The notes below the pieces were generated by a model that saw nothing but the letters and a program-made list of their open reading frames with translations, was not told the origin of the DNA and made no database searches. A DNA stretch of 64,000 bases from Prorocentrum cordatum (lineage: Eukaryota > Sar > Dinophyceae > Prorocentrales > Prorocentraceae). Made by a program: the position numbers and the translations under genes. The stretch spans positions 123,737-187,736 of the forward strand of contig CAUYUJ010019091.1 in NCBI GenBank assembly GCA_963575745.1, written 5' to 3'. Positions 332-64,000 of this stretch are shown piece by piece. Within the stretch, counting starts at the first letter, position 1, and the number at the start of each line of letters is the position of its first letter.

Positions 332-1729
332 TCAACGACTTGAATTGAGAGCGGCCGTGAAATCATCATACGTGCATGTGATATTTGTGTTGTGTTTAAT
401 CGTGCCATCCCATATGTCACGATGTACTTCCCAGTTGCCCGTCGCCACCTTGAATACAGCAACCTCAACCGGTCTGCGGCTCGCATCGGTAGGCTTCGTC
501 CAGATCGTACTCGTACCATTGCCCGACCCCGTCTCGGCCTTGATATCCATCGCTGGGTTATTGCCTATCTTCTCACGCCATGTGCCGTAGAATCTCCCGC
601 ATGCCGAGATGTGATCCTTCTTCCATGGAGGTGCTTCCAAGCGGACTCTGACTGTTGCTGGGGTGGCTGTCATATTTGCGAACATGCTGGCACGTGTGGG
701 TGGGCTACGTGCCGTCTGCTGTGGCGTGCGGGTGTTGTCAGGCGTGAAGGCATCTTCGAGAAGTTGCTTGATCTCCCAGAAAACTGAATCTTCTGTGCCC
801 GCAGTGAACTTCATCTTCACCGAGCTCAGCATCATGCGGCTGCCGTTCAAGCGTAGGGTTCCCATCGCATCGAATCGACTATCGATCTCGTTGGGAAGTA
901 TTGACCTGATATTAGTAATGAGCTGAGCAGCATCCGAATCCCTCATCATCGACTGTGAACGCTGAAGTGTTGACCCATTCCATTGTGTCCATCCAGTGAG
1001 CTCGACAAAGCTACGATGCCAAGAGAGCCTCTGTCCTCCCCCACCTCCCAGAGGATTGGCACCAGGGCCGGTACCGAAACCTCCAGAGGTGGATGCGCTG
1101 GCAGTGCTTGGTGGATTCGAACGGAGATCCCTCATCTGACGCTCTAGGTCACTCATGCGTTTGTCCTGCACCTCCTGATGGGTAGAAATGCGTGCGATAT
1201 CAGCTTTCATCATTCCCTGCTCGGCTGCTGCTACCGCCTGACCTGCCATGATTTCTTTGTGAAAGTTTTGCATCCATCCAGGCGCCTCGCTCGCTGTGGA
1301 CAAGCTGGCCGCCGCCTCAAGAGACTGGCGTGCCTGAGCAAGTGCATCCTGATATGCTCGTCCCTCCCCATCACGTCCCTCTGCCCCGCAATGACGAACC
1401 TGCCTCTGAAAATCCTCTCCTGCCCCCATGGCTGCATCCCTTCCTCCAGGCATGTTGGCAGCAATATTGGCCATATCTTCAGAGTCTGGGAACCCCCACC
1501 TTTGAAGAAAAGCACGATCTTGTAACACTTCACTTGCACGTTTGAAGCTGTGGCGTGAAGTCCCGAAATATTGATCCAAATCAACAGAAGGTATGTCCAA
1601 GGAAGGACCCTGTCTACGGCACCACTGTGATGTTGTCTCTCCCCAATGTTCGAGACCACACTGCCGACGAAAGACAACTTGTGAATCCCAGGAGTCTTCC
1701 GTCCTGAGTCTTCCAGATCGTACTCTCAC
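332..1729 (-). CDS. LINE-A ORF1, putative nucleic-acid-binding protein
   Basis: About 465 codons, almost identical to LINE-B ORF1 but lacking two residues (Lys-Ala) in the alanine-rich stretch around residue 140. It contains a predicted coiled coil around residues 178-205, a Gly/Ser-rich linker, then a conserved C-terminal block beginning SFVELTGW and including EAPPWKK. No CCHC knuckle is visible. By position it should be the RNA-binding chaperone of the element; that role is inferred. The open frame begins with GTG after an upstream stop and no early ATG is present, so the true start is unclear. Confidence 0.75.
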   Translation of the reverse strand: MRVRSGRLRTEDSWDSQVVFRRQCGLEHWGETTSQWCRRQGPSLDIPSVDLDQYFGTSRHSFKRASEVLQDRAFLQRWGFPDSEDMANIAANMPGGRDAAMGAGEDFQRQVRHCGAEGRDGEGRAYQDALAQARQSLEAAASLSTASEAPGWMQNFHKEIMAGQAVAAAEQGMMKADIARISTHQEVQDKRMSDLERQMRDLRSNPPSTASASTSGGFGTGPGANPLGGGGGQRLSWHRSFVELTGWTQWNGSTLQRSQSMMRDSDAAQLITNIRSILPNEIDSRFDAMGTLRLNGSRMMLSSVKMKFTAGTEDSVFWEIKQLLEDAFTPDNTRTPQQTARSPPTRASMFANMTATPATVRVRLEAPPWKKDHISACGRFYGTWREKIGNNPAMDIKAETGSGNGTSTIWTKPTDASRRPVEVAVFKVATGNWEVHRDIWDGTIKHNTNITCTYDDFTAALNSSR

Positions 1730-1893: not shown

Positions 1894-3589
1894 TCAACCT
1901 GGTCACCGCCGGGAACCTCGTAGAACTCCTAACACGCGTAAGAGTGCTCAGTATCAAAAGAGAGGGCTTCGGGAAGCATTTCTCGGAAAAGAGAAAACAT
2001 GATTTTTTTCATGTCGACACAGAATTGGTTTCGCGAAGTGTTTTGATTGTAAAAGTGCATGTAGAGAGCTCATATTAAGACGCTGAGGCCCTCATAATCG
2101 TCTACAGGTGCGAAAAATCTGCTTTCTCAAAATAAATGGTTAAATATCTTGCAAAAAATCGCAAAACGACCCAAAAAATGACACATTGTCCGCCTCAGCC
2201 GGGTGGGCCAACTAGCTCCACCCCGCGCCGGAATTCCTCTAGCTCATCGATGCCGAAGAGCTCTACGAGGTATTAAAACGCAGGAGCCATCATAGTCGTT
2301 TACAGGTGCGAAAAATATGGTTTCTAAAAATGAATTGTGAAATATCTTTCAAATCTGAGCAAAACCACCCAAAAGTTATCACTTTGTCCTTTCTGGCCGG
2401 GTCGGCCAACTAGCTCCACCCCGCGCCGGAATTCCTCTAGCTCATCGATGACGAAGAGCTCTACGGGGTATCTTAAACCCTTTAGCTCTCAGCGAGCCCT
2501 CCGAGAATTTTCCTTGCCCACTAGCTCTCCAGTGCGCCGGAATTTCTCTTAAGTTTCCAGGAACTGGGAGCCGGCGGTAAACCGTCAACCAGGTTACCGC
2601 CGGGACCCTCGTAGAGCTCTGACTAGACCAAGTCGGTTCTGAGATAACAGCAAAAAAACGCTTCTCAAAATACCAGCATGAAAAATAATGACATATTGTT
2701 CTCGGCCGTGCAGAATGTTGGTTCCCCCAAGTCTTTTGATCGAAATAATGCAGCTAGGGCCCTAAGGATTGCACCATCGAAAGCGCCACGATTCACTGCA
2801 TAGAATAAAAATTCAAATTTGCAAAACGAATTTCAAAATCTCTCGTCATCTTCGAAAAACCGACCCCAGGTCATCACATTGTCCGTCCGGGCCGGGTTGG
2901 CCAACTAGCTGCACCCCGCGCCGGAATTCCTCTAGCTCATCAATGCCGAAGAGCTCTACGAGGTACTAGCTAAGGGAAGCTCTACGAGTTAATTCGCCGA
3001 AAACTCAGAACCAGCGGTAAACCGTAAACCAGGTTACCGCCGGGACCCTCGTAGAGCTCCAGCTTGGTTCCGAGATAATAGCAGAAAAAAGCTTCTGGAT
3101 ACTAGCTTAAACATAAAGACATATTTTCTTTGGTCGTACACAATGGTGGTTCCCCCTAGTCTTTTAATCGGAATAATGCAGCTAGGGCCCTGAGAATTGC
3201 ACCATCGAAAGCGCCAGGATTCACTGCATAGAATGAAAATTCAAATTTGCAAAACGAATTTCAAAATCTCTCGCCATCTTCGAAAAACCGACCCCAGGTC
3301 ATCACACTGTCCGTCCGGGCCGGATTGACCAACTAGCTGCACCCCGCGCCGAAATTCCTCTAGCTCATCGATGCCGAAGAGCTCTACGAGGTACTAGCTC
3401 TCTAGCGCCCCGGAATTACTCTTAAGCTTCCATCAATAACTTGCTAAGAGAAGCTCTACGAGTTACTAGCTCCACTCCGCGCCGGAATTCCTCGGCCAAC
3501 TAGCTCCACCCTGCGCCCAAATTCCTCTTAGCTCGTCTTGCCGAAGAGCTCTACGAGGTACTGGCGCCGGCGGTGAACCGTCAACCTGG
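1894..3589. repeat. Array of short TIR modules (L family) with hairpins
   Basis: Non-coding. It holds consecutive and partial modules of about 300-400 bp that start CCTCGTAGAGCTC and end GAGCTCTACGAGG, so each has short terminal inverted repeats. A conserved internal core reads roughly GTGCGAAAAATCTGCTTTCT followed by a segment ending in GGGCCAACTAGCTCCACCCCGCGCCGG. Intact hairpins lie at 2571-2603 and 3011-3043 (GGTAA paired with TTACC). The left half of the hairpin occupied by LINE-B is at 3565-3589. Two sub-blocks (2640-2970 and 3065-3400) are close copies of each other. No ORF here looks coding. Confidence 0.75.
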
Positions 3590-3622
3590 TTTTTGGGTTT
3601 TCGGACCGATGCTCCAGCTGGG

Positions 3623-6600
3623 TCAACTGGCGGCCAGAATCTGCTGCGCCAAATGCACAACAGCGCTAGTAAGCGCCTCAGCAGCACTAAGTTCGGCGTC
3701 GGTTATCGTAGCACCCTCCAGGCACCACGCGGCTTCGCACACATCCCTCCAAACGAGAGGCATATTAGAGGACACGGAATAGGGGGAGGAGGAGGGGAGA
3801 GGAGAACACGAGACACACTTATTACAATCATATCTGTGATTGATGAAACCCACTTGAAGCCAAAAGCCGCACCCCGCCCCTTTGCTGCAAACTCCCCCAT
3901 CGTATCCACCACGACAGGCGATAGGTTGTAGAAAGTCCTCAAAGCTAAACATGTACTCATATTGGTTGTAGAAGCAGTGGCCCTCGCGGGCCAAATGTGT
4001 AAGTTCATCAGCTCGTGTGTTATCTTCCCTGAATTCATGCCTATATAAGTCTTTCCCCAATCCAGAACTTCGAATGCCCAGATCCCCCGCAGCTCGATCT
4101 AGAACGTTAATACATCGGTCCACACGTCTCTGGTATTGTTTGTTGTCGCATCGCCATCGTCCCGTCAACCAGTTATTCACAAGTAAACTATCCCCTTTGA
4201 TTTCTACCCCGAATCCTGGACTTACAATGTCCCACACCGTCTGCCTCTCGTAGATAATCGCCAACCTCTTAGCAAGTTTTTGTGTATCTTTCTCACTCGG
4301 TATACGCTCAGTATCCCCCACCATCTCGGGAGGTGTATAGTACGCCGCTGTGCCCTTCCAGTTCTGAACAAAATACAGGAATACCTTTGGTTTATCGTAC
4401 ATGCACAAAAGATTCTGCCACATCTCCAGGAAAGAACGATAGCTCGTCTCGACACTCGACCACCAGGAGCTGCCATATGTAAGAATGTATGGATACTGCC
4501 AGCTACGCTGGCCCACTCTCTCTGGACCAGCTCTCAACCTCTTGATCGTGGATGCCTGAGTACGGTTCCCGTGTAGTCGGCAACATTCTGCCATAATGTC
4601 CCTGCGCGTTGTCCACTCAACATTGTACATGAGCAATCCCCTTCTGCTGTCCACGAAAGCTCTGTTATCAGGACTGCAGTGATCAATATCATGACCTGGC
4701 AGGGAGAGTGCGGGCAGTAGAGCCGCCGACCCACTCCCTGAATCAATACTCTCAGAAGCCAAAGAATCACCGCCAAACCCTTGTCGTAGTCCCTGCAGTC
4801 GTCGTCTTTTCAAGGTCTGCCTGTTGAAGCTGGCGTCCTGGGTCGCAATGTGCCTGGCGAGCTCCTGTGAAACATCCTCCAGCCTATCACTCAATGCAAT
4901 ACTCTCAGCAACAACTTGTGAGATGGCTCCCGCGAAAGATTGCGAGGGTGTATCAGCAAAGCGTACTCTCTTCTGGGAAGGCTCAGGATCAGCACCAAAC
5001 GTGGCGACGTGTGCCTGGGGTGTTCCCTCGCATTCGGGGCTTCCCCAGGACTTGCGTCCTGACGCCTCCTGCAAAATTTGGCGACGTTGCCTGAGGTGTT
5101 CCCACGCACTCGGGGCTTCCTCAGGACTTGCGCTCTGACGCCGTTGAACATGTCGACGGTGACAATCTGACAAGATATACTCCTTGATACTTCTCATCAT
5201 CGTCCAGCTCTTCCAAGCAATCATCTGTACAGCTGATGGGAAATTGGCCTCAGCGAAATGCTGTCGCACCTTGTGGAGCATCTCAGGGCGCCAGACACCC
5301 CATGTTAGCGAAGACGGCTTGCGGCGGCACCACATACGCAGCAGACACATGCCCTCAAAAGCATGTATGGTTCGCACCGCCTCAGCATCAAGCGCGAACA
5401 TCTCTCCCGCATATAGCAGACGCGATTGGACCTGAGCTTGATAACGACGATATTTGTGTTTCAGCGGTACCGATCGGCACCCAAAATATGATATCTGAGC
5501 GAAAAAGGATCCTCTGGCGCATTTAAGTCGATGTGCTAGGTCCTCGTGTCCCTCGAGAAAGCTTTTGCAGACAACGCAGCCCAGAATGGAAAGCGACTCC
5601 ACCGGTGTGAAGGCAACTCGTTGGTCTCCGACTTGGGCCAGAATCGGCGTAGGGTCCTGGGTCCCGCATACGAGTATCTGCAAGGATGATGACTTCCAAC
5701 TCATTCCCCAGTCTGCTAAAGCAATGGTGAAAACATCAACGATCTTCTGGATTTCCTTAGCATTCCTCCCCACAAGGTACAGATTATCAGCCCAAAGCGC
5801 ATGGTTGTACGTGTGGTAGGTAGCGGGGTTGTGGGGGTCGGAGATCTCGTACCCTATGTTCTGAGCGTCCAGAGAGGCAACTACAGAGGCCCACATGGCG
5901 ATAACCACGATGTTGAAAGCTAGCGGGCTCTCAGTCCCGCCCGTCCTCAAGCTCTTATCCCAAGAAACCCCATCCAGTTGGATCCCTTCGAAGACGATGG
6001 TGCAATTTGTAATAGCGAGCGGCTCAATAAGTGCATATTGTAAGCGTGCTGGGATCTCAAGTTTATCCATTGCGCGTGCAAGCATACTGAGCGTGACATT
6101 GTCGAATGCTCGTGCAATATCTGCCGATGCAATATGTGCGCTCTGATCTTTGCCCCATATAGAAGCGTGCTGTGCAATACCTTTAAGTGCGGCCGCGATC
6201 TCCCATGTGTGCCGTCCCCCTGCAAAGCCGTAGATTCCCAACTTACTTTTCCACAAAGCCAGCCTGTCCTCAATAAGAATAGTGACTGCCGTGAGGTACC
6301 ACTTGCCTAGAGTGTTGGAAATTATCAAGTTCCTGGTGTCATCCAGGGACTCCATGTTGGACATCTTCGGCATGAGATTCAGATACACGTCACACCATGA
6401 GCTGGGAGTGCGCCGACGACCTGAATATATCTCCTGAAACACAGCAGTGATCCTGCGCATCGAGCGCCATGGCAGAACTTTGAGTAACTCAATGCTAACA
6501 CCATCGGGTCCACAAGCTTTGCCGCTACGAAGGCGAGCGCGGGCTCGATATATGACGGAAGGCGTGAGTGTGGGGCCAACTGCTTGGCTGTCAAGTGCTG

Positions 6601-7933
6601 CGCGACGGAGACGTGTAACAAGTTGTGCATTACGCTCACGCTCAGCAGGACATGTCATGGTACGTACAGCATGTGCCTGCACCTCCTCCTCCCAGGCCTC
6701 CCTGTCCTCCGTGACAATACCATCCACCTTCAATTTACGAACTCTCGTCCTCTTCCCCCTCCTAGTCGGTGCTACTGAATATTCAGCTGTCTGTCGATTG
6801 TATTCGTCTTGCAATGGTCGGAGTTGCCGTCTAAGTTCACGCTGTGCTTGCCGATTGCCTTTATGTTCACGAACTTGCTTTTCAAGTAGGGCGTGCTGTG
6901 GGGTCCTCGCAGGGGGTGACCTCTGGTGTCCAGGAGCACTCAGCAGGGGCAGGGCGTGATCACGAATTGTTCTTGCCATCTCCTCTGGGCCTACTACAGG
7001 TACCTGGATATCCACCAAAGCTCGAAACATATCCTCCTCCCTGTGGCTCTCGAACTGCTTATGGGCACGATGATGCCTAGGTGCAGGACGGTAACGTGAT
7101 GTAGGCTTCGCTGCAACATTCATCTCAACACGAACGAGAGCATGGTCGCTGAATCGGCTGTCGTGAGCCTCATACAACATGTCCACTCTACCATCTACAA
7201 TCATGTCAGACCAACTGGTGGGCACCATGATGTAATCAAGCACACGGGGAGCCGTCTGCCTGCCTAAAGGTTCAAAAGTAGGCACCCTCCGAGTCCCTAG
7301 TGTATTTGTCGCGCAGAGCCGCATCCGCTGCATGAAGCCCTCCATCTCCTCCCTCATGTGATCTTCCCTCCACCTCCTCTGTTCATGATCCCCTTTCACA
7401 CCATACCCTCTATGCATAGCAATGGACAGAGCTTGGCCTGTGTGGATCCCGAACCTGGTCTCAAGTCCAGGCGTCAACTCCACTTGGCAGTCCCCCGCCA
7501 GCACAAGTCTGTAGTCAGACCCATTCTTCGAACAAAAGTGTGCAAACGTCTGCCTAATATAACTAAGCATATTCTTCTGAACATCAAGTGCATCATCACG
7601 ATCGCAGTGCGGGAAATACGCCGACACCAAGAAAACACACGGACGCCTAAACGCAAGTATTGAAATACGGTCTGTTGAAAAACTGGCTTTGATATTATGA
7701 CGTTGTTGCCCTCTGATCACAACGCCAGCCTGCTTGCAAGTAGAGAGATAAGACTCCCATCCCAACTTTCTAAAACTGATCGAATTATGTGAGAGGTTCT
7801 GGCACTCCTGCAGACACACGATATTTACCCCCAGTGTCGACAGCAGGCGCATGCAACTAAATCCCCTGTCCTGACTCTTGCCGATCTTATTCACATTCAA
7901 AGTCCCAAGCTGCATGAGTAGGGAGTCAGGCAA
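3623..7933 (-). CDS. LINE-B ORF2: EEP endonuclease, reverse transcriptase, permuted RNase H
   Basis: 1436 codons, uninterrupted. Residues 1-270 are an EEP endonuclease: N14, LQECQ (E43), AGDCQVE (D148), VLDY (D233) and SDH (262-264). The reverse transcriptase spans about 450-760: motif A ADIARAFD (D605), motif B RTGGTESP (663-670), and motif C WADN (714-717) where YADD is expected. A charged linker follows. The last 220 residues carry RNase H motifs in unusual order: KGDS (D1248), REDNTRADEL (D1309), then YDGG (D1345) and TDAELSAAEAL (E1414). In normal RNase HI the last two come first. The frame is open from the ORF1 stop; an ATG lies near residue 7. The protein should nick the hairpin target and prime reverse transcription there. 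Confidence 0.92.
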   Translation of the reverse strand: MPDSLLMQLGTLNVNKIGKSQDRGFSCMRLLSTLGVNIVCLQECQNLSHNSISFRKLGWESYLSTCKQAGVVIRGQQRHNIKASFSTDRISILAFRRPCVFLVSAYFPHCDRDDALDVQKNMLSYIRQTFAHFCSKNGSDYRLVLAGDCQVELTPGLETRFGIHTGQALSIAMHRGYGVKGDHEQRRWREDHMREEMEGFMQRMRLCATNTLGTRRVPTFEPLGRQTAPRVLDYIMVPTSWSDMIVDGRVDMLYEAHDSRFSDHALVRVEMNVAAKPTSRYRPAPRHHRAHKQFESHREEDMFRALVDIQVPVVGPEEMARTIRDHALPLLSAPGHQRSPPARTPQHALLEKQVREHKGNRQAQRELRRQLRPLQDEYNRQTAEYSVAPTRRGKRTRVRKLKVDGIVTEDREAWEEEVQAHAVRTMTCPAERERNAQLVTRLRRAALDSQAVGPTLTPSVIYRARARLRSGKACGPDGVSIELLKVLPWRSMRRITAVFQEIYSGRRRTPSSWCDVYLNLMPKMSNMESLDDTRNLIISNTLGKWYLTAVTILIEDRLALWKSKLGIYGFAGGRHTWEIAAALKGIAQHASIWGKDQSAHIASADIARAFDNVTLSMLARAMDKLEIPARLQYALIEPLAITNCTIVFEGIQLDGVSWDKSLRTGGTESPLAFNIVVIAMWASVVASLDAQNIGYEISDPHNPATYHTYNHALWADNLYLVGRNAKEIQKIVDVFTIALADWGMSWKSSSLQILVCGTQDPTPILAQVGDQRVAFTPVESLSILGCVVCKSFLEGHEDLAHRLKCARGSFFAQISYFGCRSVPLKHKYRRYQAQVQSRLLYAGEMFALDAEAVRTIHAFEGMCLLRMWCRRKPSSLTWGVWRPEMLHKVRQHFAEANFPSAVQMIAWKSWTMMRSIKEYILSDCHRRHVQRRQSASPEEAPSAWEHLRQRRQILQEASGRKSWGSPECEGTPQAHVATFGADPEPSQKRVRFADTPSQSFAGAISQVVAESIALSDRLEDVSQELARHIATQDASFNRQTLKRRRLQGLRQGFGGDSLASESIDSGSGSAALLPALSLPGHDIDHCSPDNRAFVDSRRGLLMYNVEWTTRRDIMAECCRLHGNRTQASTIKRLRAGPERVGQRSWQYPYILTYGSSWWSSVETSYRSFLEMWQNLLCMYDKPKVFLYFVQNWKGTAAYYTPPEMVGDTERIPSEKDTQKLAKRLAIIYERQTVWDIVSPGFGVEIKGDSLLVNNWLTGRWRCDNKQYQRRVDRCINVLDRAAGDLGIRSSGLGKDLYRHEFREDNTRADELTHLAREGHCFYNQYEYMFSFEDFLQPIACRGGYDGGVCSKGAGCGFWLQVGFINHRYDCNKCVSCSPLPSSSPYSVSSNMPLVWRDVCEAAWCLEGATITDAELSAAEALTSAVVHLAQQILAAS

Positions 7934-10280: not shown

Positions 10281-13200
10281 TCACCGGCCAAGCTGTACGT
10301 GTATACACATCTCGGCAATGCCATTGAGAAGCGAATGTGCAGCTGCCAACTCAGCCTGTGTGATCGTGCAGTGGCTAGGGATCATGAAACCTCTGCGGCC
10401 AACTCCAGGGTGCCATCCGCCCTGCACAAGTCCAGGGGGAAGCTGGTGAGGAGGAAGAGAGGGAACAAGATAAGCATCCATAACCCAGCCACACGAAGTG
10501 CCACGTTCACACCGCCCACCGTCAAAAGCTCCTCTAAGTGCACGAACAATATAATGACCCGATCTAATATGATAAAGAGTGTTATGATTCCAACGAACAT
10601 CAGAAGTTACTTTACCCTCACGTGCAAGATGTGTCTCATGGTCCGCCTCATCGTTGCCCTCCCTATACACCCATTTCCACATATCCCTTCCCACTTCAGC
10701 CGTGACAAGATGATGGTCCTCACTCATTCTGTGAAGGCGGTTCTGCATACCCTTGATCGTGCGGCGGTATACTTCATTATGACAGCGATATCTTCCATTA
10801 AGCCAGCGCACAACACACTGGCTATCCCCACGGAGCTCCAAGCCATATCCACCCCCTTCCCCACGCCAAGTGGTTTCATCATCATTTATCGCGGCCAGTC
10901 GTTTCGCCACCCGTTCATTTTCCCGTCGTTGCTGCTCCTCAGACTTCTCCTCCCCCTCCTCCTCCTGCTTGAACTCACCCGTGAAGGGATCCCGAAGAAG
11001 GCAGAACTCGAGAAGATCATCCAAGTCCAGGGCGGCCAGGGTACCCACCAGGAAAGAACGCCAGCCAGTTTCATTCCAGACCATCGTGCGATCCCAATGA
11101 ACCCCGTGCGTGTGCTCGAAGACCTCGAACCAAGGCCTGAGTCCCGTCAAGACTCGATGACGACAGGCTCTAGTAAACCTTCGGCCCCCAGGGAGAGCTC
11201 TAACATGTACGTCACGCTGCTCAGTCCACTCCCCCGACGCGTGCATCATCGTCAAGGCGCTCTGCATACTGGCAGTGGGCAATCCTCCTTCCTCCTCCCG
11301 TGCATAGGTATGGCGTACCCGCTTACGAACAGGCCCATGTACATGTTGTGAATCATGATGCTCATGTGCCGTGTTCTCCGATATACGTCTGCGAACTGAC
11401 CTATTTTCCAAGGAAGATGCGCTCTGTGCCTTTCTCCTACACGAACTGTTGAGCTGTCTGGCATTCGGGGTAGGCGAGGGAACCGATAACTCCAAGGAAC
11501 GCTGCGAACCACCAAAAATATCAGGATCTCGTGGCTCATGATAAAGAATGCCCTGACTGAGTGCGTCCTCATCCACCCGACTATGTTCCTCATGGATCGT
11601 GCTCACAACATGTTTGGCGAAGAGCCACTGGCGATGAAGGGCGAGCTGGACCATCGAAGGCTTACGGGCCCACTTCAATAAGCGACGACCACCTTTAATC
11701 CTCCTGCCCCAGTACTCTCCCCAGGACTCCGTGATCTTCTTTTTGAGACGTCTCATGGTGGACAAGAAGTTGCCTTCAGCTGCATGTATCTGTTGGAGAC
11801 TACTCGAATCCAGAGTCGTACCCTCCAAACCGTACAGAAAGCAACTTCTGACCCTGCTATCATAACGCTGAAACTTACAACGAAGCGGAACCACGGGCGA
11901 CGAGTAAAAAGAAATCTCACTCATGAAGACCCGCCGTGCCTTCTCCAGTCGGTGCTTAATGTCGTCATGATCCTGAAATCGTACGTCCAATAGCGTGCCA
12001 AGAACCTCCATCCTCTCCACCTGCCTCACTATCATCTCCTCCGAAGGGCCTGCGGCGCTCTGGGAAGCCCCACGAGAACGCTTCCTACCCATCTCAGCAG
12101 GCAGGAGCCCCGGCACAGGCAGGCGGATATCCTGCAATGGACCTTGGACGCCACAAGCCAAGAACTCCATCGAAGATGCTTTCCAGTTGAAACCGAAGCG
12201 GTGGAGGACCCCAGTCAAGTCCTCGAGCATATGAGTCAATTCTCGCCTGGAAGCTGCTGCCAGCAAAATATTGTCTGCCCACAACCAGTGGTTGACCAAG
12301 AGATTGGATGCCTCATCAGTGAGCCTGACGCCGTATCCAGACTGCCTCCAACCTGCCGTCACTGGTGCAAGCATACGAAGTGTCTGGGCAACAAATAGCA
12401 AAGGCGCCTCCAAGGAACCTGTACGTATGCAAGTATCCCACGAGATGGTCGTAGAACACTGTTGGAAGCTGATCTCTGCCGCATTACAAGCATAACTCTC
12501 AAAGACAGCATACACAAGGGCAGGATGGACATGATGGAATAAAAGCGCCTCTGCTGCACATCTCACCGTGAAATTATCAAACGCCTTTTCAATATCAGCA
12601 CTTGCAAGATAAAGACTCTCCTCCTTCCCCCACACAACGCCGTGTTGAGCAAGACGTTTGAGGGGGGCCGTGACCTCATAATATTTGTGCCCCGCAATAA
12701 AGCCATATAAGTTGCAACCTGGCGGCGCAGCCTGCCGAACGCGGTGCTCTAGAAGTACACATAGACAACTGATATACCACTTACCAAAATGAGAAAGAAG
12801 TGAAAGGGCCCGCGTTTCTTCAAAATCACGAGCCTTGGGATTCTTAGGCATCAAGCATACCAAGATCTCTCTCCAGGACTTCGGTGAAACATGTTTCTGA
12901 TCATACAGCAAACGGAATAAGGTAAGTATGTGTCGGAGGGCTTCCCATGGCAATGCTTTGAGCACCGATGACGTCACCCCGTCTGCACCTGTTGCCCGTC
13001 CTTCCCTGAGTCTAGACCGTGCCTCCAGCAAGAGACCCATGTTGATCGGGTTGCGGTGGGGCTCTCCAGAGTCTCGCAGGGCCTTACACTGGTTCTTAAG
13101 CTCATCCAAGCACGCGTTGGTGTCCTGTCGGTGGGGATCGCTAGAGTACCTCAGGAGCCCATGACGCCGAAGGCCCTCAATCCACTTCTCCTGGTCACGC

Positions 13201-16522: not shown

Positions 16523-19500
16523 TTTTTTGCGTATTGCGTGCCGCCACAGCAGGGTCGGGTCACCGCCCAGGCGATAGCCACACAAGGAGGCCTAGTATCC
16601 TGCCAAATGCAGGCATTCCTCCACTCCCAAAAGGAGTTGTCGGGCAGACTCTAACTCAGCTGCAGTGATAGTGCTCGAGGGGGGAAGGAGGAAAGAGGAA
16701 GAGGCCACGTTGGGCTCCCACACGCCACTCGGAAGAGTGACTGGATACTCAGCAACAGAAGAGGAGCACAAATGAAAATCAATCTGCCAGCCACAGCCTA
16801 CACCCAGATAGGATCTTCCACCATCGAAGCTTCCCCGAATGGCGTCGATCAGAATAGCGTGAGCTTTAATATGGGATAGTAAATCATGCCTAAAACGTGT
16901 TCTACAAATGCCCTGCCTAGCTCTGTGTGTTAACTCATCCGCAGCAGTGTTGTCCTCTCTGTATACCCACTTGAAGATATGTCTCCCAAGACAGGCCGCC
17001 TGCACACCACATCTCTTAGCTAGAATGTCTAACTTATTCTGAATGCCGCCCACAATCTTGTCATAATGCACATTGGCAGTAAAGTACAAGCCTTGGATCC
17101 ACCGCACAACGCATTGAGAGTCTCCCTTCAGTTCAATGGCAATCCTCCCCACCTGGAACTCCCACTCCGTGTAATCCTCCAATATCTTAGCATACCGTTT
17201 GGACAACACCTCCTCCTTCTTCCTGCTGAGCTCCTCCGAAAGTACCTCCTCCTCCCTCTCTTCCATAGGCTTCCAAGGAATAGGATCTTTAAGAACCAGG
17301 AAATCAGAAACACCAGGAACCTGTAGAAGCGTAAAAACTTCACGAGCAAACTTGACCCAGGCCTCCTCGGTCCATTCCAGAACATGGTACCAGTACTTCC
17401 CTCCCACGAGCTCAAAAGGTGTTCTCCACGGGCGCATGCCGATAGGAGCTCCGACAGTCCTCACACGAGTTCCAGCACGTCCAGCCTGGCTTCCTAAAGA
17501 TAATATCAGATCATCTCGCCTGGATTCCCACTCCCCTCCTCCGTGCAACATGGACAGTCGTGCCTGCAGGTAGCCGTTGACAGCAGTGCCCGTGTCCACC
17601 ACCGTGGGCTGATTGTAATAGCGGGTTGGGTCCTCGAACCTGTCTCTGAGTCTCGCCGTGTTCTGGGAAAGTTGGGTCCTCTGACGTTTGGCCTCATTCA
17701 CGCACATCGTTTTTCTTTTCCGTCGGTTCGTGGGCTCGGAGGGCGTCGCATCATCAACAGGAGCCCCAGGAGCATGCGAGGGAGGCGGCACCAATTGTGA
17801 GCCACCCACCACAGAGATCTCATCCACGCCTCCTCCGTCCCTGCCAAAACAAGACAATGCAATATCCTTCGCCCATTTCCACTGCCGATATAGGAAGACC
17901 TGTGCGAGTGGAGGTCTGCCAGCTTCATAAAAAGCTTGCCTCCCTCTTTTGTACATGCGCGACATGAATACAGCCCACCCCTCCTCCTCCCTCTTTGCTC
18001 TCCACGTCATCCTGCTCAACATCTTCCCCTCCTCCTTGTGTATAAATGCAATCGTAGAACTGTCAACTGTGGCTCCTTCCAAGCCGAAAAGAAACTTAGA
18101 TCTCACTCTAGACTCACATCGTGCAAATTTATTCTTCCAAGCAATCCTCCTGGAGGTGTAAAACGCTCGATCATTCCAGAAAGCACGAATAGCTTTTGCC
18201 ATACGGTATCGCACATCATCGTGATCCCTGAACTTCCTCGCAATCTTAGTCCCCAGCACAATAATCTCATCCACCTGCGGAATGGTGATGTTCTCGGGGA
18301 GAGACACATTGGGCCCCCTGGACATACCTGGCGGGAACAACGTCACCATGAGAGGCTCCGTCACACCGGTGGTAGAGCCCACGTCCATGAACTCAAGACT
18401 GCTCTGCTTCCAACGAAAGCCGTGGTCGTGGAGAGCCCACGTCAACTGTAAGATCATTTTAGCCAGTGTGGGGCGATCAGGAGCTGTGAGAAGCACGTTG
18501 TCCGCCCATATGAAGTGACTCACAACAATACCTCCTGCTTCACCCGAGAGTACAACACCGACAGCATCTCTCGCCCAAGCAGACGTAATGTCACCAAACA
18601 TGACCAGAGATTGAGCAGTCCACAGATCAGGTCCTTCCTTGGAACCTGTTTTCACACACGTTGTCCAATGGAGCGTATCAGTGCAGACACCCTCAAACTG
18701 GAAGACCGCCTCATTACCAACAGAGTTCTCAATAAGACCATACCGAAGCTCCACATCAACACACAAACGCTCAAGTGTAGAAGAAGCAACTTGGACAGTG
18801 AGAGAGTCAAATGCAGTGGCAACATCCAGGGAAGCAAAAACAATATTCTCCTCCTTCCCCCACAGTCTGGCATGTCTGCACATCGCCTTCAATCCCGACG
18901 TTACCTCATGTGTCTTACGACCTTGCTGGAAACCATACAAACACAGAGACGGAGCAACAACCGGAGCAATAGACACCAAATGCGAACTGAGTAGAATACA
19001 CAAGCAGCCCATGTACCATGTGTTAACGACAGAATTCACAGCAAGAGTACGACTGTCATCAAACCTCTTATTCTTGCCGTTCTTCAACATAATGGATGCA
19101 CGAATGAACTTCCAAGACTCAGGTGCCTCTGCCATTCGCCAGAAGCGGCGCTGGAAGCAGTCAAGCACCACACGGAGTGCTTCCCAGGACAAAGAACGTA
19201 ACATGCGTGCACTGATACCGTCAGCGCCTACCGCCTTGCCTTCACGAAGCCTGGAACGAGCACGACAGAGAACATGCATGGTAATAGGAGAAGAAGTGTG
19301 AGTGCTGCGCGCACGTGCCTCATCAGCTTGAACCCGAAGCTGCTCCAGAGTCGCCAAGTTCATAGCAAGACGTTCCGACTTAGAGTACTTAGCCCTGACC
19401 ACCCTCGTCATATCCTCCTTCCACTTACTGCGGTCTTCACACCATTCCCCGTCGATCATCATAGAGTTAGTAACAGTCTTAGTCTTGACCCCATCCCGAT

Positions 19501-32130: not shown

Positions 32131-35100
32131 TTAGGTAGGTCGTAGCAGAGCGCACGCCACCTTAGCAGCAGCTCTCGTCAGGGCAGCGCAGGCAGCTAGT
32201 TCACAGCAGGTTACCGTGCTACCAGGAGGCAAGCTCATCGCCTCCTCGGCCACATCGTGCCAATGGAAGCTGTGCGAGCTGGTGCAGGAGGAAGAGGAGG
32301 AGGAGGAGGAGGAGGAGGAGATGGGAAAATCAACCTGCACGCTGGAACCCCTACCTACAACGCCAATCTGAAGCCACCACCCACCTCCACATCCTTCATT
32401 ACTGACACCCCCATCGAATGCACCACGGAGAGCAGTCTTACGAGTACTGAGGAACTTATCATATGCAAACCAGCGAGTAATAGTTTGGCCACCTCTGGCC
32501 TCCCACGACAATTTATCCGCACGCTCATTACCCTCACGAAAGAAATGCTTATACAGATTCTGTCCCGATGCAGGTGAGGTCAGTCCCCATCCAGACAGCA
32601 TCGATACCGTATTTTGTAGTGTTCCCACCAGTCGTACATACTGCTTGTTGCGAATCTGCCACTCACCACACATCCAGTTTACAACAGTCTTACTATCTCC
32701 CAAGATCTCCATCCCAAGACGCTCAATATTCTCACACCTCCACTCCGTTTCATTCTCAAAATTAGCGGCAATACGTTTGCTCATCCTCTCATTCATCTCA
32801 CTCTCCTCCTCCTCCTCTGCCTTCACATGTCTCACACCAGGCGGCCTGGGTAGAACAAACAAGTCGAACAAGTGTTGCATACCAATCACAGTCAGCAAAT
32901 GCTTGCAGTATTTCTCACGGGACCCAGCGGAACTGTCGAATGAGAGGTACCACTCACAACCAAAGAGATCGCACAAGCACCAGTCCCACGCAGTATGTCC
33001 ACGGGGGCGGCCGCCTATGTTCATGCGTGTCAGCTGCTTCCTATCTTTTACAGGCAATGCTAGAATACATGTGTCACGATGTTCCGTCCACTTCCCCCTT
33101 CCATGTAACATGGCCAGCCTAGATATCATCCATTCACGTGACATGTCCGACTCCTCAGGTATGGCAGGCTGATCATCTGGTGTACGCCGGCGACAGCCAC
33201 TCGACATCTGGGATATCTGAGATACATGATATGTTTGAGAAGTCGCCGCCGCCGCCATCGCCCGAGTTTTCCTCTGACGCCGATTTGGTACCGTCTCTCC
33301 CTCCTCCTCCTCTGTGTGTGTTGTGTATCTCCTCATACGAATACTTGCAGCAACTGAGACATCCTTAGCCCAATCCCAACAACGAAATATCCATATCTGC
33401 ACCGCACTTCGGAATCCAAGTCCAGCAAAACTCTGTCGTCCCGCTTTGTATCGCCTACGTTGAAACTCAGACCAGCCTTCAGTTCTCCGCTTGCGTATAC
33501 CTGACATTATAGCTAGACATCTGCCTTCAAAATAGTGAACAGCAGCAATGGTAGAATAGTCGGGCGTTCTGCCCTCACAGTTGAATAATAATGCAGCAAT
33601 CACTTTAGCTTGATAGCGAGTAAATCTTTCAGCCAAGTCAATCCCAGAACAGCGGTAATACGCGATTTCCCCAAAGAACATCCTCTGGGCTTTCTGGAGC
33701 ATGGCCTCTGAGTCCGAGTGGTCCTTCCAGGTCTCCTCCAGAGTGGCTCCCAGGATCTCAAACGCTTGAACACGCGGTAGGACCACTTCTCGGGTCCCAA
33801 GAGCGGCGTCACTAGACGGCACCAGCACACGGATATCCTGCTCAGGGGACGGCGGGATGCCAGGCGGCGCACCAAAGTAAATATACATCAAAGATTTCGG
33901 CTTCCAGGTCACTCCTGCATTCATCAGGGGGATGCTCATGTCACGCACCATCAACTCAAGGTCAGTGCGGGTCTTCGCGTACAGCAAGAGATTATCTGCC
34001 CAGAAACTGTGGGTCATACGCTCCCCATTGAACATGCGCTCATCATTTTCCAGTTTGATGCCGTACTGCGTTTCTCGCCTCCACCTGTCGATAACATCTC
34101 TCCAGAGTACAATAGAAACTGCCAGAAAAATCATAGGTCCCTCTACTCCTCCCGTTCGAATAGATTTGTCCCAATAGACCGCTGACGATGCCTCGATGCC
34201 CTCGAAGCTGGCCACGCACTGATTATCCATCATGGGTTCAATCAACGCCACAATGAGATCAGCTGGTATGTCAAGAGCACGAAGACAGCGCATGGCGAGG
34301 CACGGAGTAACATTATCGAAAGCTTGTAAGATATCAAGATTGGCAAGCCACAAACTGTCTCCTTTGCCCCAGACAGCGGAGTGCTGGCTGAGCCTCTTGG
34401 CAACGCTGGTGATTTCCGATGTTTTACGTCCCGATCTGAATCCGTACAGGCATACATAGTGTCGGTGCTCCTCAATCCTCTTCTCAATCAACATCACAAT
34501 ACATGTCATGTACCATTTCATAAGACACGACTGTAGACATAGCATACGTGTATCTGTCAAATGTTTTATGTCCATTTCTTTTGGCATGAGTGTGGCAGCT
34601 AGTTGACGCCAACTGTCAGGACAACATAACCTTCTGGAATACACACCTTGGAAGCTCACCAGAACACGTCGCACAGATGCCCACGAGAGCTGTTTCAACA
34701 TCGTGACAGTCACGTTGTCGGGACCTGGGGCCTTTCCCGTGGACAGCTTCGCCCTCGCCCGCAGCAGGAGCGACATCGAGAAAACCTCTGAGGATCCGCT
34801 TTCCGAACATAGACCACGCAGCGACTGAAGCTCACGCAGGGTCACCTCTCTGGCCTCGGGGTCCTCCACCTTAGACTTCATGTGCCCCAATATCTCGTCC
34901 CCCCACTCCTCGCGGTTCTTAGACTCCATCCCGTTGGCAAGGATCAACGTCTCCGTCTTGGCCCTCCTCCTCCTCCTCGTGTTCATTTCCGTCCTCCACC
35001 TCTGTACTCTTGCCTCAAGCCTCCTTCTTTCTCTCCTCACAATCTTTGAGCACCGTTTAGCCTCCTCTCTATCCCCCCGACGAAGAGCTTCACGTTTACT

Positions 35101-51350: not shown

Positions 51351-52836
51351 AAGAGGCACTCACACAAACGAGCACACGCACATAAGCACGCACACACGAA
51401 CACACACACACACACACATACAAACACATATACATACACAAGAACGCACACATACGCCAGCATGTTCCACACACACACGCACACACACACACACACACAC
51501 ACGCACACACTCACACACACACACGCACACGCAACACATCCACGCGCAAAGGGCGACACACACGCGCAAACGCGCACACACGAACACACAGCACATCTCA
51601 CATACACACAGGGACGCGCACACGCACACTGATCACACAAGCACATAGACACACGGGGGCACACACAAACACCCACACGCACACACGCACACACACACAC
51701 ACACACACTCGCGCACGCACAACCCACGCACACAGACGCACACGCAAGCATCCATGGAAACCTACGCACTGACGACCACACGATGACGCACGCACCGCAG
51801 CCAACTCGGCCCCCCCCCCCCGCGCTCCCCTGCCGCCCCCACGCACCCCCGCCCTCCTCGCCGGCGCTCCGGAGGGGGGGGGCACCGCCCCATTTTGGGG
51901 CCGGCCCTCCCTCCGCTCCAACCACTCCGCCCTCGCGGAGCGCCAGAGGAGGGGGAGGGGGGAGGGGCGGGGGGCGCGCGGACGGCGGCAGCACCGCGCG
52001 CACGCACGCGCACACGCACATGCGCAGACGAACAACGAACAGGATGGCAAAGAGGATATCACACAAGCAAGCACACGCACACACACACACAGACTCGCAC
52101 ACAAGAGCACACACGTACGCCAGCATGCTCCACACACATGCGCACATACACACATGCACACACACGCACACACACACACACGCAAAGGTCCACACACACA
52201 CACGCGCAAACGCACACACGCAGAGCACCCAGACACGCACGCGCACACGCACACACGGTCGCGCACACACACACACACACACATACGAGACACGCGCGAG
52301 CCCCCCCCACCACCACCACCACAAACACACACACACACACAAGCGCACACACAGACGCAATCGCGAACACCCGCGGCAAACCACGCACAGACGACAACGC
52401 GGTGACAGACCCATTCCCCGACTAAGCAGCGCACTCTACCCCCGCGCCCCCCAGCCGCCCCCAAGCGCCACCGCCCTCCCCGCCGGCGCTCCGGAGGGGG
52501 GAGGCACCGCCCCATGTAGGGGCCGGCCCTCCCTCCACTCCAGCCACTCCGCCCTCGCGGAGCGCCGAAGAGATGGGGGGGGGAGAAGGGGGAAGGGGGC
52601 GGCGGGGGTGCCAGCGCCGTGCTCGCACACAGACCCACACACACGCACACACAAGGATGCACGTTTCCTCAGGAAGCGCGCCGCGTCGCAGGCGCGAGCG
52701 CGGGTCTCAAGTGCACACGCGGACATACACGCGCACACTAAGACACACAGACACACATACACACACACGAATACACAAACGCACGCCCGCACACTCAATG
52801 AGGGACGCCCTGGCAAGCGGCCACGGAGGGGCGATC
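51351..52836. repeat. CA/ACGC low-complexity block with a duplicated G/C-rich segment
   Basis: The plus strand is dominated by degenerate CACACACGCACA repeats in three blocks (51351-51780, 52003-52430 and 52620-52800). Between them are two related G/C-rich segments of about 150-200 bp (51810-51980 and 52440-52600), each with CGCCGGCGCTCCGGAGGGG, GGGGCCGGCCCTCCCTCC and CGCCCTCGCGGAGCGCC. Long open frames here encode His/Thr or Cys/Val strings and are artefacts. The alternating purine-pyrimidine composition could adopt Z-DNA. Confidence 0.8.
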
Positions 52837-53467
52837 TCATCCCAACCTGTGTGGATCAGAGCGGGGTAGGTCTACGCCTGTCCTGTCTGTCACGCGGCCC
52901 CGTTCGCCCTCTTCGCGTCGCCTGCGCGCGGTCTCCGCCTCCCTCGCCTGCTGCGCCTTCTCGTGAGCCTCCACGTCCGGAATCCCGATTGTGGCGATGC
53001 GCGGGCGCGCTTGAGGGCGCGGCGGTTCGGTGGACGCCGTGCCAGCGCCGGCGCCCACACGAACGACAACGCCAGCCACAATCCTCGTCGTCGCCCCGCC
53101 TCCACCGCCCACTGACGGGGCCGAAGCCCCACCGTGCGCGCCAGCATCCCCAGCACCCTCGGACGCGGCGGCCTCTCGCGCACCCTCGAAGCCGCCCTGG
53201 GCGAACACCTCTGGAGGCGCAGCCGCGGGCGAAGCCTCGGGCAGGGTCCCCGCCGCTGGAACCACCGGCGCAGAAACAGCGCCCGACGCACTGCGCGCCG
53301 CTTGCTCCTGGAACTCCTTCAACTTTGCCTCCGGGATTGCCCCGTCCACGCGCCCATGCCACCCCTTTGCCCCTTGCTGGCCGAAGTGCCTCTTGCAGAA
53401 CACGCCGCATCCCTCCGCGGGGAAACTGCGGCACTGCGCACCCACTCCATCCCCCAAGTACGAGCCA
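52837..53467 (-). CDS. Helitron-like C-terminal Cys/His tail
   Basis: Directly after KCLARTWG of the previous piece, this frame continues GDGVGAQCRSF, GCGVFCKRH, GWHGRVDGAIPEAKLKEF, then an Ala/Gly-rich region and a charged end (EAETARRRREEGERGR). The spacing of four Cys and two His suggests a small zinc-binding module followed by an HGRVDG-IP motif. I do not know a named family. The break at the five-G run needs one extra G to be repaired, so an error or single-base deletion there is likely. Confidence 0.65.
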
Positions 53468-54361
53468 AACATTTCCTTTCATCGATCGTCTTCGGCGTAA
53501 AGCGATGCCACTCGCGGTCGGCAGGTGGCGCCCCCACGCCTGGCTCGACCGCGGCAGGAGCCGGGCCCGCGGACGGGACGCCCGAGGCCCTGCCAGCGTC
53601 GTCGTCCTCGCCGCCCGTGCTGCCCAGAGCAGGCGGGGACAGCCCGCGCTTCATGCCCCTGCGCAACGGCGGCTGCGGCTGCCCCGAAGCGCCGGGGTCC
53701 CCGTCGCCAGCGCCAGGATCCCCGCCACCCGCCCGACGCCGCTTGCCCGGTGGCTCGCCACCCGACGCCTGCTGCCCGGCGGGCGCACTCGGCGGCGCAG
53801 ACGGCGCGGCAGACGTGCTGGAAGCAGCGCCGCCGCCGCCATCGCCGCTCCCCGCCGACCCCGCCGCGCGCCCGCCTGCATGCCCGAGAGGCGCAGTCGG
53901 CGGAGCCGGCGGCGCACCAGACGGTCCCGCACCAGCGCTGCCGCCGGCGCCCCCCGCAGACCCCGCCGCCGCGCGCCCGCCGCCTCCGCCCCGCGGTCCC
54001 GCCCTGCGCACATACGCAAACACATACGCGCCCATGTGCACCTGGTGGTTTCTGGCGATCTGCGCCCAAGTCTGGAGGTGGACAGTACTGTCGTCGAATT
54101 TGGCGTATTCGTTCACGCCCACGGATGCATACGCATAGTAGTGTCCTCTCGTCGCGCTTTCGCCCTGGTGCACCACGACCCCCGAGAAATCGTACTCGCA
54201 CTCGGAATCCACAGGCCGCAGAATCTGAGGAAAGCGCACAGGGCGTCTGTCGTACCACTCGCCTATCACCCGCTGCACGATCACGAAGAGCACGGGCGGC
54301 GACCGCTCCAGCGATTGCCTGTATATACCCTGATGCCTTGACAGACCCCGGCCGCCGCCCT
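53467..54361 (-). CDS. USP C-terminal half with His/Asp catalytic box
   Basis: The frame reads SPPVLFVIVQRV, FPQIL, YDFSGVVVHQGE, TRGHYYAY and YAKFDDSTV. This is the standard second half of a C19 ubiquitin-specific protease, with catalytic His (GHYYAY) and Asp (FDDS). Together with Cys1833 upstream the triad is complete. It is out of frame with the long ORF; a 50-nt GT...AG interval at 54362-54411 would join the two in frame. After the protease comes a Gly/Ala-rich linker, then WHRFTPKTIDERKCLARTWG, where the frame breaks at a run of five Gs near 53467. Confidence 0.8.
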
Positions 54362-57300
54362 CTGAGCATCATCGAGGTGAGCGTGCGCCGGACATCCTTG
54401 CCCTGGCTCACCGACATGCCTTAATTCCAGCCGGATCAACTCCTCCAGATCGCTCGGCCCCCGGTAGTCGGGGCCGAGCAATTCGGAAGGCACCACCTTG
54501 AGAAACGTCTTAATTTCCCCCTTGTCCGAACTTGCTGTGCACGCGGCGCATCGCCACCGCTGCCGAAACGCAATGCCGCAGACGTGCTGCTGGAGCACAC
54601 TGCGCTGCCCGTGAGCCCCCCCTGCGGTGCAAACGGGTTGTTCGGCCGCGGTAACGGCATGGAGGGCGGCCAGGAAGAACTCTGACGCGTCGCATTGCTT
54701 CGGTCTCCCTTGCTGATCGAATTCTGCAAATTCTCGCTCACCAAAGAGCCCCTTGCGCGCGGCTATAGCGAGTGGCGCGACGGCGTCGACCCCCTGGTCA
54801 GAGAGAGCCGCGGCCTGAGCTCCGAGCGCGCACGCCGCGCAAGAGTCTGCACCCAGAGGGCACCGGCCGTGCTCGTGGAGAAGCCGACGGCAGGGAGCCA
54901 GGCGCAGCAGCACCTGCGCGACTGAGCTCACGAAGCAAGTATTGCCGAGGTTTGCGATGCCCACGCCAGAGCCGCGGCCGCAGTGCCACTGCAGCTCCCT
55001 GGTGACCTCCTCCTGGGACACGCCGTAAGCTGCCATGCACAGATCCCGGTCCAGCGGGCGCAGCTCTGGCGGTTCTGCACCATCGCCAACAGTCGCCGCC
55101 GTGCGAAACATTTCCCCCCAAAGATCCCTCGGCACGACGGTGCCCCTACCGGCGCCGCGGCCGGCACCCCCGCGCCCACGCCCCCGCGAAGCAGCGCTCC
55201 CAGTGGACGGTGCCGCCGCCGCATCTGCGGCCCCCGTCGCGTCGCCGCCGCGGCCGCGGCCCCTGCCCCGCCCCGCAGGCCCCGCGCCCGGCGCAATGAA
55301 TGCCGGCGGCACCGTCAGAGCCTGGCCCGGGCGCAGCGCATGCGAGGGCAGAGGCGTCTGCACAGACGCCGCAGGGGCCACCTCCCCGTCCGAAGGCGCT
55401 GATCCAGTGGCGTCGTCGTCGTCGTCGTCGTCGCCCACCTCGTCACCGACGCCCGCTGAGCTCCCCACGGCGCGAGGCGGGCCTGGCGGCGACGCCCGAG
55501 GCCCCGTCGGCGGCGCGGGCGCCGAGCTCGACTCCGGGTTGCCCCGTCCCGCGGGCCCATCCCCCACGTCCCAGCCGTACTCCTGCGCCCTCTGCTTGGC
55601 GATTTCGTAACTCGCTTTGAAAATCCTGCCTTCGAAGCGTTGGACCCCCTCGCGGACGTACTGGGGCGGGCCCCGCTGCAGGATTTCCCAGGGCGGCAGG
55701 TTGTAGACGAGGACGCGATGGGCCACGCGAACGCGACTGAGCATGACGTACAGGTGCAGCCACCAGTCATCGGCGCCCATGGTCATGGGCTTCTGGAGCA
55801 CCATGGTGGCCGCATCCATGCCCAAGCCCTGCGCCGTCTGCACGGTGCGAACTTTCTCTGGCAGCAACGGGATCTGGTACCTCGTAACCTTCCCCTTCCG
55901 AAGCTTTCGCTCGCCATCGTCTTCGTAGTAGTGATGGTTCCACTCCCAGGACGCCCTGTGCGGCGCGATCTGCACGACCCCTGCTCCGAACCCTAGGTCC
56001 TCCGTGAAGTCATCAAACTTGACGAGGACACCGCGAGGCACACGCTTGCATCGATAATAACCGAGCCTGTGGGCGTCGTGAGTCTTCTTTTCGCGCCAAT
56101 CCGCGCCCGGCGTCTCGAACTCTCGCGGGTGGAACCGCACGTCCTTGACTACCCCCACGGCGTCCTGGACGATCGGGTGCTTCGCCGACAACTTCACGGT
56201 CAGCCGCACACGCATGCCGATGTACAGCGGGCACATGCCGATGAGGTGACCAGTGTTGTTCACGTTCGGCACCTGCAGCATGGCCTTGTAATGCTCCTCA
56301 ACGAAGGCCGCGGGGGTTGGAGGCAGGTCCACGGCCTGTACGTACAGCAGCATCTGCCCCTTCTCCCTGGCCTCTCGCACGGCCCGATACTGTATCTGCC
56401 TGTGCACGGCCTCCCAGGCGATGCCCATCTCGAACCCGTCTTTGACAGCGGGGTCCTGCAGCCGCTTGTCGTTCTTACCGGGTCGGACCACCCACCCTTG
56501 CACCACCCTTTTCTGCTCGGCCGTCAACTTCTTGCCCTCCCTCATGGTCTTCAAGAACCCCGGCATGAAAGGGCAGGGCGCGTGCGGAGTAACGAGCCTG
56601 TCCTTGAAGCGGTGCGTCTCGTACAGAAACATCGCGTGGGTCACGCCGTCCAAGAATATGGACTGCCCATTGCGGACGTGAACCCACTGGTCGGGCGCCT
56701 CACGCTGCAGCAGGGAAGACCTCTTGCCTTTGCCGCTGACAGGGCCCAGCTGATAAAAGTCACCCAGGAACATGACAATCGGAGCCTTCCCGAACATGTG
56801 GCCCCGCTCCATGTACAGATCCACATCGCAATTGTGTGTCGCCTTACGGGCTTTGCACATGCGAAACGATGCAGCGCCGAGAAGCGCAGGCGGCACCATG
56901 GACACCTCCTCCACGATGACGGCCTTGAGAGCGCTCATGCGGTCCACGAAATCATCCTCGACTTTCTGCCCGGAGAGCCTAGCGATGGTCAAGGCCTGCT
57001 GGCCGCTCAGACCGAAGCCGCTGTGGATCGTCTCCCCCTCGATGACGCGCGCAGCGCTGTTCGACGAGGCCACGGCGATCTCCGATCCCTTGCCGAACAC
57101 CTCGGCGAACAGACGCCGCAGCAGTTTCACCACCTCCGTCTTCCCCGTCCCGCCCTCCCCGTGCAACAGGAGAGCCATCTGCTCCACTGGCTTGGGGCTT
57201 TTTCCGCTGCTCAGGTCTTCCTCGTATGCCACGATGGCCTCCACCTGGCCCACGACCAGGGCGACCACCGCCTTCTGCTCCTTATTGAACGTCACCGGGT

Positions 57301-60433: not shown

Positions 60434-60434
60434 T

Positions 60435-63855: not shown

Positions 63856-64000
63856 GTCCACGCCCGCGGGCGGCGCGGCCCCGTCCGCGCCGGACGGCTA
63901 CCACCAGGCGCGCGGCGCGTCCGGCGCGGCAGCGGCGGCGGCGGCCTCCCCCGAATCGGCGGGCGCTGCGCAGGCCCGCCAGTCGTGAGACCCCGTGACG

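Follow-up and report, generated by a model that had tools for sequence, protein, structure and literature searches.

The RNase H fold is a reference for nucleases, integrases, Argonautes and the reverse transcriptases (RTs) of retroelements. Among the described systems, the closest to the elements reported here are the L1 elements of plants (Ta11) and oomycetes, which carry an aRNH domain at the C-terminus of ORF2, and retrotransposons have acquired aRNH repeatedly according to the available part of the same source (PMC5348765). That part also places an Arg at the variable active-site position of aRNH and a His in the RNase H of Fungi and Metazoa. In the accessible sections of PMC10830420, the RTs of viruses and LTR elements, which encode their own RNase H, are set against non-LTR RTs such as that of human L1, and L1 is described as recruiting RNase H2 via PCNA.

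The RNase H-like superfamily is known to include a circular permutation, detected by automated structure comparison; in the accessible portion of that report neither the protein, nor a retroelement, nor the catalytic site is named, and overlap with the LINE case cannot be judged from it. The available text of PMC5348765 makes no mention of a permutation of aRNH in the plant and oomycete L1s and contains no word starting with "permut", and neither "permut" nor "circular" begins any word in the available text of the 2014 survey of the RNase H superfamily (PMC3985635). A permuted LINE RNase H is likewise undescribed in the accessible parts of PMC5408684, PMC3578095 and PMC10830420, and no description of a permuted RNase H was found in the open-licence literature, which is weak evidence of absence. 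A C-terminal aRNH in L1 ORF2 is already known, and what would be new in the LINEs described here is the exchanged order of its halves.

LINE ORF2s in the window

The window analysed here is a stretch of 64,000 nucleotides from an assembly of Prorocentrum cordatum (4.13 Gb in 21,875 contigs). The ORF list together with a motif check revealed four uninterrupted ORFs of 1436, 1409, 1398 and 1382 amino acids on the minus strand, designated LINE-B, LINE-C, LINE-D and LINE-E, which are LINE ORF2s and share pairwise identities of 26.6-36.0%. A profile of their four RT regions (Table 1) matched LINE-1 ORF2p (E 1.5e-11) and R2 (E 4.5e-5) in the PDB, and by this comparison LINE-B to LINE-E appear to possess the L1-type RT of L1-like non-LTR retrotransposons. 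An L1-like RT and a C-terminal aRNH in ORF2 would be common to the window LINEs and the plant and oomycete elements; in the latter a CCHC motif precedes the RNase H (available part of PMC5348765), whereas a loose CCHC pattern returned a single candidate among the four ORF2s, in LINE-B.

Other LINEs of the same genome (L063, L064, L068 and L072) also combine RT and RNase H in one ORF, but their RNase H has the canonical order; it precedes the RT in L063, L064 and L072 and follows it in L068. RT motif C reads WADN in LINE-B, -C, -D and -E, with Asn replacing the second Asp of the usual xxDD. Among the LINE ORFs of this genome with canonical RNase H, motif C is [WF]SDN in L063, L064 and L071 and YVDD in L068.

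At the N-termini of the four ORF2s, E43, D148, D233-Y and SDH are conserved, motifs which we take to resemble those of APE endonuclease. Pfam gave no APE endonuclease match at the N-terminus of any of the four, and in a PDB search with this region the APE-like 2jc5 appeared at a weak E of 0.11, ranked behind unrelated matches.

Motif order of the C-terminal domain

All four ORF2s end in a domain in which the motifs GDS, RExNxxAD, [FY]DGG and [AC]EL follow one another in this order. The acids of a D-E-D-D site are present in their motif contexts (DG, E in alphaA, DS and NxxAD) in each of the four proteins, and their linear order is D(beta4)-D(alphaE)-D(beta1)-E(alphaA), unlike the D(beta1)-E(alphaA)-D(beta4)-D(alphaE) of RNase HI, from which the strand and helix names were assigned by homology. 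Because the linear order of RNase HI is not kept, the domain was filed as a permuted variant. From the sequence comparisons given below, the C-terminal ~200 residues of these ORF2s are very probably a circularly permuted type 1 RNase H of the aRNH subgroup, in which the chain would run from beta4 to alphaE (GDS, RExNxxAD), through a linker, and on to beta1-beta2-beta3-alphaA (FDGG, AEL).

The residue numbers of the acids in the preliminary description of this DNA were exact on recheck, and the shared order that it reported for divergent, uninterrupted ORF2s holds in the four window proteins and extends to database relatives, where the permuted order was present in 31/31 proteins with both context motifs (7 of 38 lack one or both). 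An automatic count of the order that did without the context motifs gave 26/31 and 12/15, owing to chance repeats of the motifs. The interval 3623-4000 in which the domain had been placed is too short, and covers just the last part of the LINE-B domain.

Table 1. Features of the four LINE ORF2s and of three further LINE ORFs of the same genome. Positions in the LINE-B to LINE-E rows are those of the window.
Feature	Position	Strand	Residues	Catalytic acids	Basis or remark
LINE-B N-terminal 300 residues, probable APE-like endonuclease region	7034..7933	-			motif resemblance
LINE-B RT, RVT_1	5675..6232	-	568-753		Pfam 37.8 bits, cut-off 29.6
LINE-B RT motif C, WADN	5783-5794
LINE-B whole domain	~4222 down to 3626	-
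LINE-B second half, beta4 to alphaE	3971..4222	-	1238-1321	D1248, D1309	aligns with RNase HI C-terminal half
LINE-B linker, joins old C- and N-termini	3923..3970	-	1322-1337
LINE-B first half, beta1 to alphaA	3626..3922	-	1338-1436	D1345, E1414	motifs
LINE-C RT, RVT_1	12177..12812	-	567-778		Pfam 27.8 bits, below cut-off 29.6
LINE-C RT motif C, WADN	12270-12281
LINE-C domain	10284-10856
LINE-C second half	10605..10856	-	1219-1302	D1229, D1290	motifs and canonical HMM
LINE-C first half	10284..10544	-	1323-1409	D1330, E1387	motifs
LINE-D RT, RVT_1	18386..18940	-	617-801		Pfam 20.3 bits, below cut-off 29.6
LINE-D RT motif C, WADN	18497-18508
LINE-D domain	16595-17152
LINE-D second half	16901..17152	-	1213-1296	D1223, D1284	motifs and canonical HMM
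LINE-D first half	16595..16846	-	1315-1398	D1322, E1378	motifs
LINE-E RT, RVT_1	33907..34560	-	574-791		Pfam 44.9 bits, cut-off 29.6
LINE-E RT motif C, WADN	33991-34002
LINE-E domain	32134-32727
LINE-E second half	32479..32727	-	1185-1267	D1195, D1255	motifs and canonical HMM
LINE-E first half	32134..32436	-	1282-1382	D1289, E1360	motifs
L063 LINE ORF	2251-5991				RNase H 526-647, RT 771-995
L064 LINE ORF	1981-5976				RNase H before RT
L072 LINE ORF	3187-7497				RNase H before RT (RT match weak)

Relationship to RNase H

The top match of a four-domain profile in the PDB was the RNase HI of Sulfolobus tokodaii (E 1.5e-3), and a 17-sequence profile retrieved five RNase H chains (E 6.9e-4 to 0.02), with the next match not below E 1.4. 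These alignments spanned residues 70-134 of chains 140-149 residues long (134-160 of the 199-residue 4e19), which is the C-terminal half. All matches of the profile at E<=0.1 in 5.77 billion proteins were either members of the family (20 proteins) or carried RNase H Pfam domains (12 proteins, E 6e-6 to 0.057); of the latter, 11 have both RNase H Pfam domains and P0039 just RVT_3. Short patterns from the second half had one match each in prokaryote and viral contigs, both in an RNase H of canonical order, and a protein search with the full LINE-B ORF2 as query gave no match at E<=0.001 in region 1090-1436.

Pfam found RVT_1 alone and no RNase H in the four full ORF2s, and on the isolated domains it gave half-matches only, all sub-threshold, so that such LINEs would be annotated without an RNase H. 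Swapping the two halves raised the RVT_3 score by 0.6-1.3 bits, with the match still in the second half and below the cut-off, and this gain is insufficient by itself as proof of permutation.

The RE of RExNxxAD was aligned with the RE of archaeal RNase HI, and its Arg is conserved at more than 90% across the aligned family. Cellular aRNH sets gave the family profile, in its written order, scores of 105.0-106.9, and a 5-sequence set of the Fungi/Metazoa type gave 31.2; by these scores the domain appears closer to aRNH than to the RNase H of Fungi and Metazoa. Compared with aRNH (S. tokodaii ST0753, PDB 3ALY/2EHG; Pfam RVT_3 PF13456), the second half of the LINE domain aligns directly and the whole domain aligns once read in tandem, with the same four acids and with Arg, not His, at the variable active-site position; the domain differs from aRNH in the exchanged order of its halves and in a Ser-rich variable loop between beta2 and beta3.

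It had been set out beforehand that a second, conventional RNase H elsewhere in ORF2 would speak against the permutation, and none was found by Pfam, by an unfiltered HMM or by profile comparison. The unfiltered canonical RNase H HMM marked one stretch per ORF2, the C-terminal one, and the part of ORF2 before LINE-B residue 1205 reached probabilities of just 0.1-0.4% against four RNase H profiles.

Permutation assessed with tandem profiles

As written, the family profile aligns with canonical RNase H over the second half only (61 columns with a 12-sequence canonical set, 64 with cellular RNase HI). The profile was doubled in tandem, whereby no cut point had to be chosen, and the best local alignment was read across the junction. 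It was built from the 21 of 42 sequences (4 from the window and 38 from databases) that had both halves, the remainder being excluded, and in the rows of P0009 and P0011 the second half was cut short by an earlier NxxAD-like string.

Against a 12-sequence canonical set, the tandem profile scored 113.05 over 119/132 columns, as compared with 95.4 over 61 columns as written, and all four catalytic columns were in register in the tandem alignment. Shuffling the columns of the first half 400 times gave a mean of 95.8 and a maximum of 102.5, none as high as the real score, with one shuffle attaining 119 aligned columns, and reversing the first half gave 95.8. After removal of loops, where columns in at least 85% of rows were kept (a rule picked after the no-gain result given below), the tandem score rose from 105.0 to 115.9 with 11 cellular sequences, four of them from solved structures (121/131 columns), from 58.6 to 84.2 with 18 canonical RNase H sequences of the same genome, and from 88.3 to 111.8 with these 29 sequences pooled; column-shuffles as high as the real score numbered 0/60 in each of the three sets. 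Over the four sets together, tandem coverage was 119/132, 121/131, 114/121 and 119/121 columns. A LINE RNase H reference set gave 62.3 in tandem and 43.3 as written (0/100 shuffles as high), and a Fungi/Metazoa-type set gave a marginal gain (3/100 shuffles as high).

When the profile was restricted to the four window proteins, three of four sets matched its halves separately, in the permuted order. When a canonical HMM was run on the 21 members singly, with 50 shuffles each, the permuted score was reached by 0/50 shuffles in LINE-C, LINE-D, P0008 and P0030, by 1-7/50 in ten members, and by 16-50/50 in seven (LINE-E, P0002, P0009, P0011, P0012, P0013 and P0021). For the first half of LINE-B, alignment to the N-terminal half of RNase HI required a tandem or permuted profile; taken alone, it matched weakly. 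With most reference sets, and with the four catalytic columns in register against the 12-sequence set, the profile comparison supports a true circular permutation and the reading of the domain as a permuted RNase H proposed earlier.

A half RNase H (beta4 to alphaE, perhaps binding nucleic acid) joined to an unrelated FDGG..AEL domain, with chance motifs and no active site, is an improbable alternative. It would account for a first half that is nearly invisible in single sequences (about -1 to 3.5 bits), that is a weak match when taken alone from the four-protein profile (probability 2.5-41% with three sets) and that adds nothing with one narrow cellular reference set (7 sequences, loop columns kept; 96/100 shuffles as high), but it does not account for the failure of shuffled first halves to reach the real score in the 12-sequence and the three loop-removed sets, nor for the alignment of the first-half Asp and Glu with canonical catalytic columns. 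D1345 and E1414 are moreover kept in all 40 LINE-B copies examined, and the length after the Glu matches alphaA.

Geometry and permutation point

ORF2 stops 20-22 residues past the catalytic Glu in LINE-B, -C, -D and -E, approximately the length of alphaA, and on the N-terminal side of the domain homology starts at beta4, which together place the permutation point in the connection between alphaA and beta4. In 9 of 11 cellular RNase HI sequences the spacing from the Glu to the GDS Asp is 24 residues, the Glu coming first. The linker between the old C- and N-termini is 14-20 residues long in the four window proteins. GDS and NxxAD are 60-61 residues apart in the LINEs, compared with 49-51 in the 11 cellular sequences.

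A helix-like stretch, KRLAxI....TxW, is conserved across the family just before beta4 (LINE-B 1215-1235). As a candidate relic of alphaA it was rejected, since it showed no alignment to alphaA (the row of P0003 was misplaced on an earlier GDS).

Selection, copies and relatives

Two LINE-B subfamilies of 20 copies each gave a pooled dN of 0.132, a dS of 1.77 and a dN/dS of 0.074 between them, and all four acids were intact in the 40 copies. Within the subfamilies dN/dS was 0.026 and 0.172, ratios biased low because the copies were top or hand-picked high-scoring matches; the large dS between the subfamilies is less affected by this bias in the choice of copies. The ratio between the subfamilies indicates that purifying selection acts on the LINE-B C-terminal domain, and its maintenance by selection suggests that the rearranged chain still forms a working enzyme. 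On this basis the domain is presumably functional. It is predicted to fold as other RNases H do, with its acids forming a single two-metal DEDD site.

A permuted fold that no longer catalyses and instead has a structural role or binds the hybrid, as does the tether RNase H in retroviruses and some Ty3/Gypsy elements, is in our judgement improbable as well. Retroelement RNase H domains lacking catalytic residues are known (available part of PMC5348765), but the known tethers have lost those residues, whereas here the four acids are present in 4/4 proteins and 40/40 copies, and the unfiltered HMM and the profile comparison gave no second RNase H in ORF2.

Candidates for the domain in the same genome numbered 5560 for LINE-B, 5287 for LINE-D and 27,177 for LINE-E at a first look, of which 150 each were scored. 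Among the matches listed, copies were spread over many contigs, many with long open frames, and a frame of 1390-1393 codons was kept in more than 30 LINE-E copies. A fifth family, 50% identical to LINE-D, had the same motif order in two copies (L087 and L088). In this genome the clade comprises at least five families, with ORF2 identity down to 27%, some of them with many near-identical intact copies. Four of 29 database proteins (P0004, P0026, P0027 and P0028) came from a Pyramimonas transcriptome (eukprot Pyramimonas_sp.AAC.1), and P0004 was 81% identical to LINE-D over 151 amino acids; these family members in a green-alga data set reflect either contamination or horizontal transfer.

That the order stems from a local rearrangement, an assembly artefact or a decayed copy confined to the window is highly implausible: the close head-to-tail LINE-B pairs and the apparent ~74.2 kb duplication indicate that rearrangement is common on the contig of the window, but the copies on many contigs with long open frames (among the matches listed), the fifth family, the permuted order of proteins from other data sets and the purifying selection on the domain all stand against it.

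The last ~45 codons of LINE-B ORF2 show 79-96% DNA identity between the subfamilies, compared with 60-83% upstream, and residues 1393-1426 have a dS of 0.30 between subfamilies. Window positions ~3550-3760, the end of LINE-B ORF2 and ~75 nt beyond, perhaps constitute a conserved 3' RNA end overlapping the coding sequence.

Proposed mechanism and evolutionary origin

The cycle of these elements may be depicted as follows: The endonuclease-like region would nick the target, the RT would copy the element RNA from the nick by target-primed reverse transcription, and the putative C-terminal RNase H would degrade the RNA strand of the RNA:DNA hybrid that the RT has produced, freeing the way for the second strand. 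If the domain is a permuted and active RNase H as proposed, these LINEs would bring their own RNase H, unlike human L1, and would provide the first description in a retroelement of an RNase H that is circularly permuted by nature and catalytically competent. With termini in the alphaA-beta4 loop, the RT side would be joined at beta4, and the passage of the hybrid from RT to RNase H would be altered.

A single origin is envisaged, for which the likely route would be a tandem duplication of a C-terminal aRNH, after which copy one lost its first half and copy two its second. The linker is compatible with an inter-copy linker of such a duplication. Among the close relatives found, none had the canonical order or a tandem duplication, though the duplication route predicts such forms. 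The database protein P0042 has two canonical RNase H domains in tandem, which demonstrates that such duplicates exist, irrespective of any kinship to these LINEs. Tentatively, and at somewhat less than even chances, one ancient circular permutation of an active aRNH may have become fixed in a large clade of L1-like LINEs.

If RNase H occurs naturally in permuted form and under selection, the order of its chain can be changed while the active site is retained, and such a domain would be a ready test system. Order-blind profiles of the tandem kind may uncover more permuted domains.

Other features of the window and its contig

On the contig of the window (C18242, in which the window occupies 123737-187736), LINE-B domains form two head-to-tail pairs with spacings of 7627 and 7629 bp, and the members of three pairs of copies are 74,220-74,223 bp from each other. 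The contig thus displays tandem LINEs inside an apparent duplication of ~74 kb, either real or of the assembly. At the other end of the window, positions 52001-64000 have a G+C content rising to 0.67-0.71 and long overlapping ORFs. In one of these, 2050 amino acids long (54281-60433), a Walker A-like helicase motif was recognised by eye, and this region is perhaps another large mobile element.
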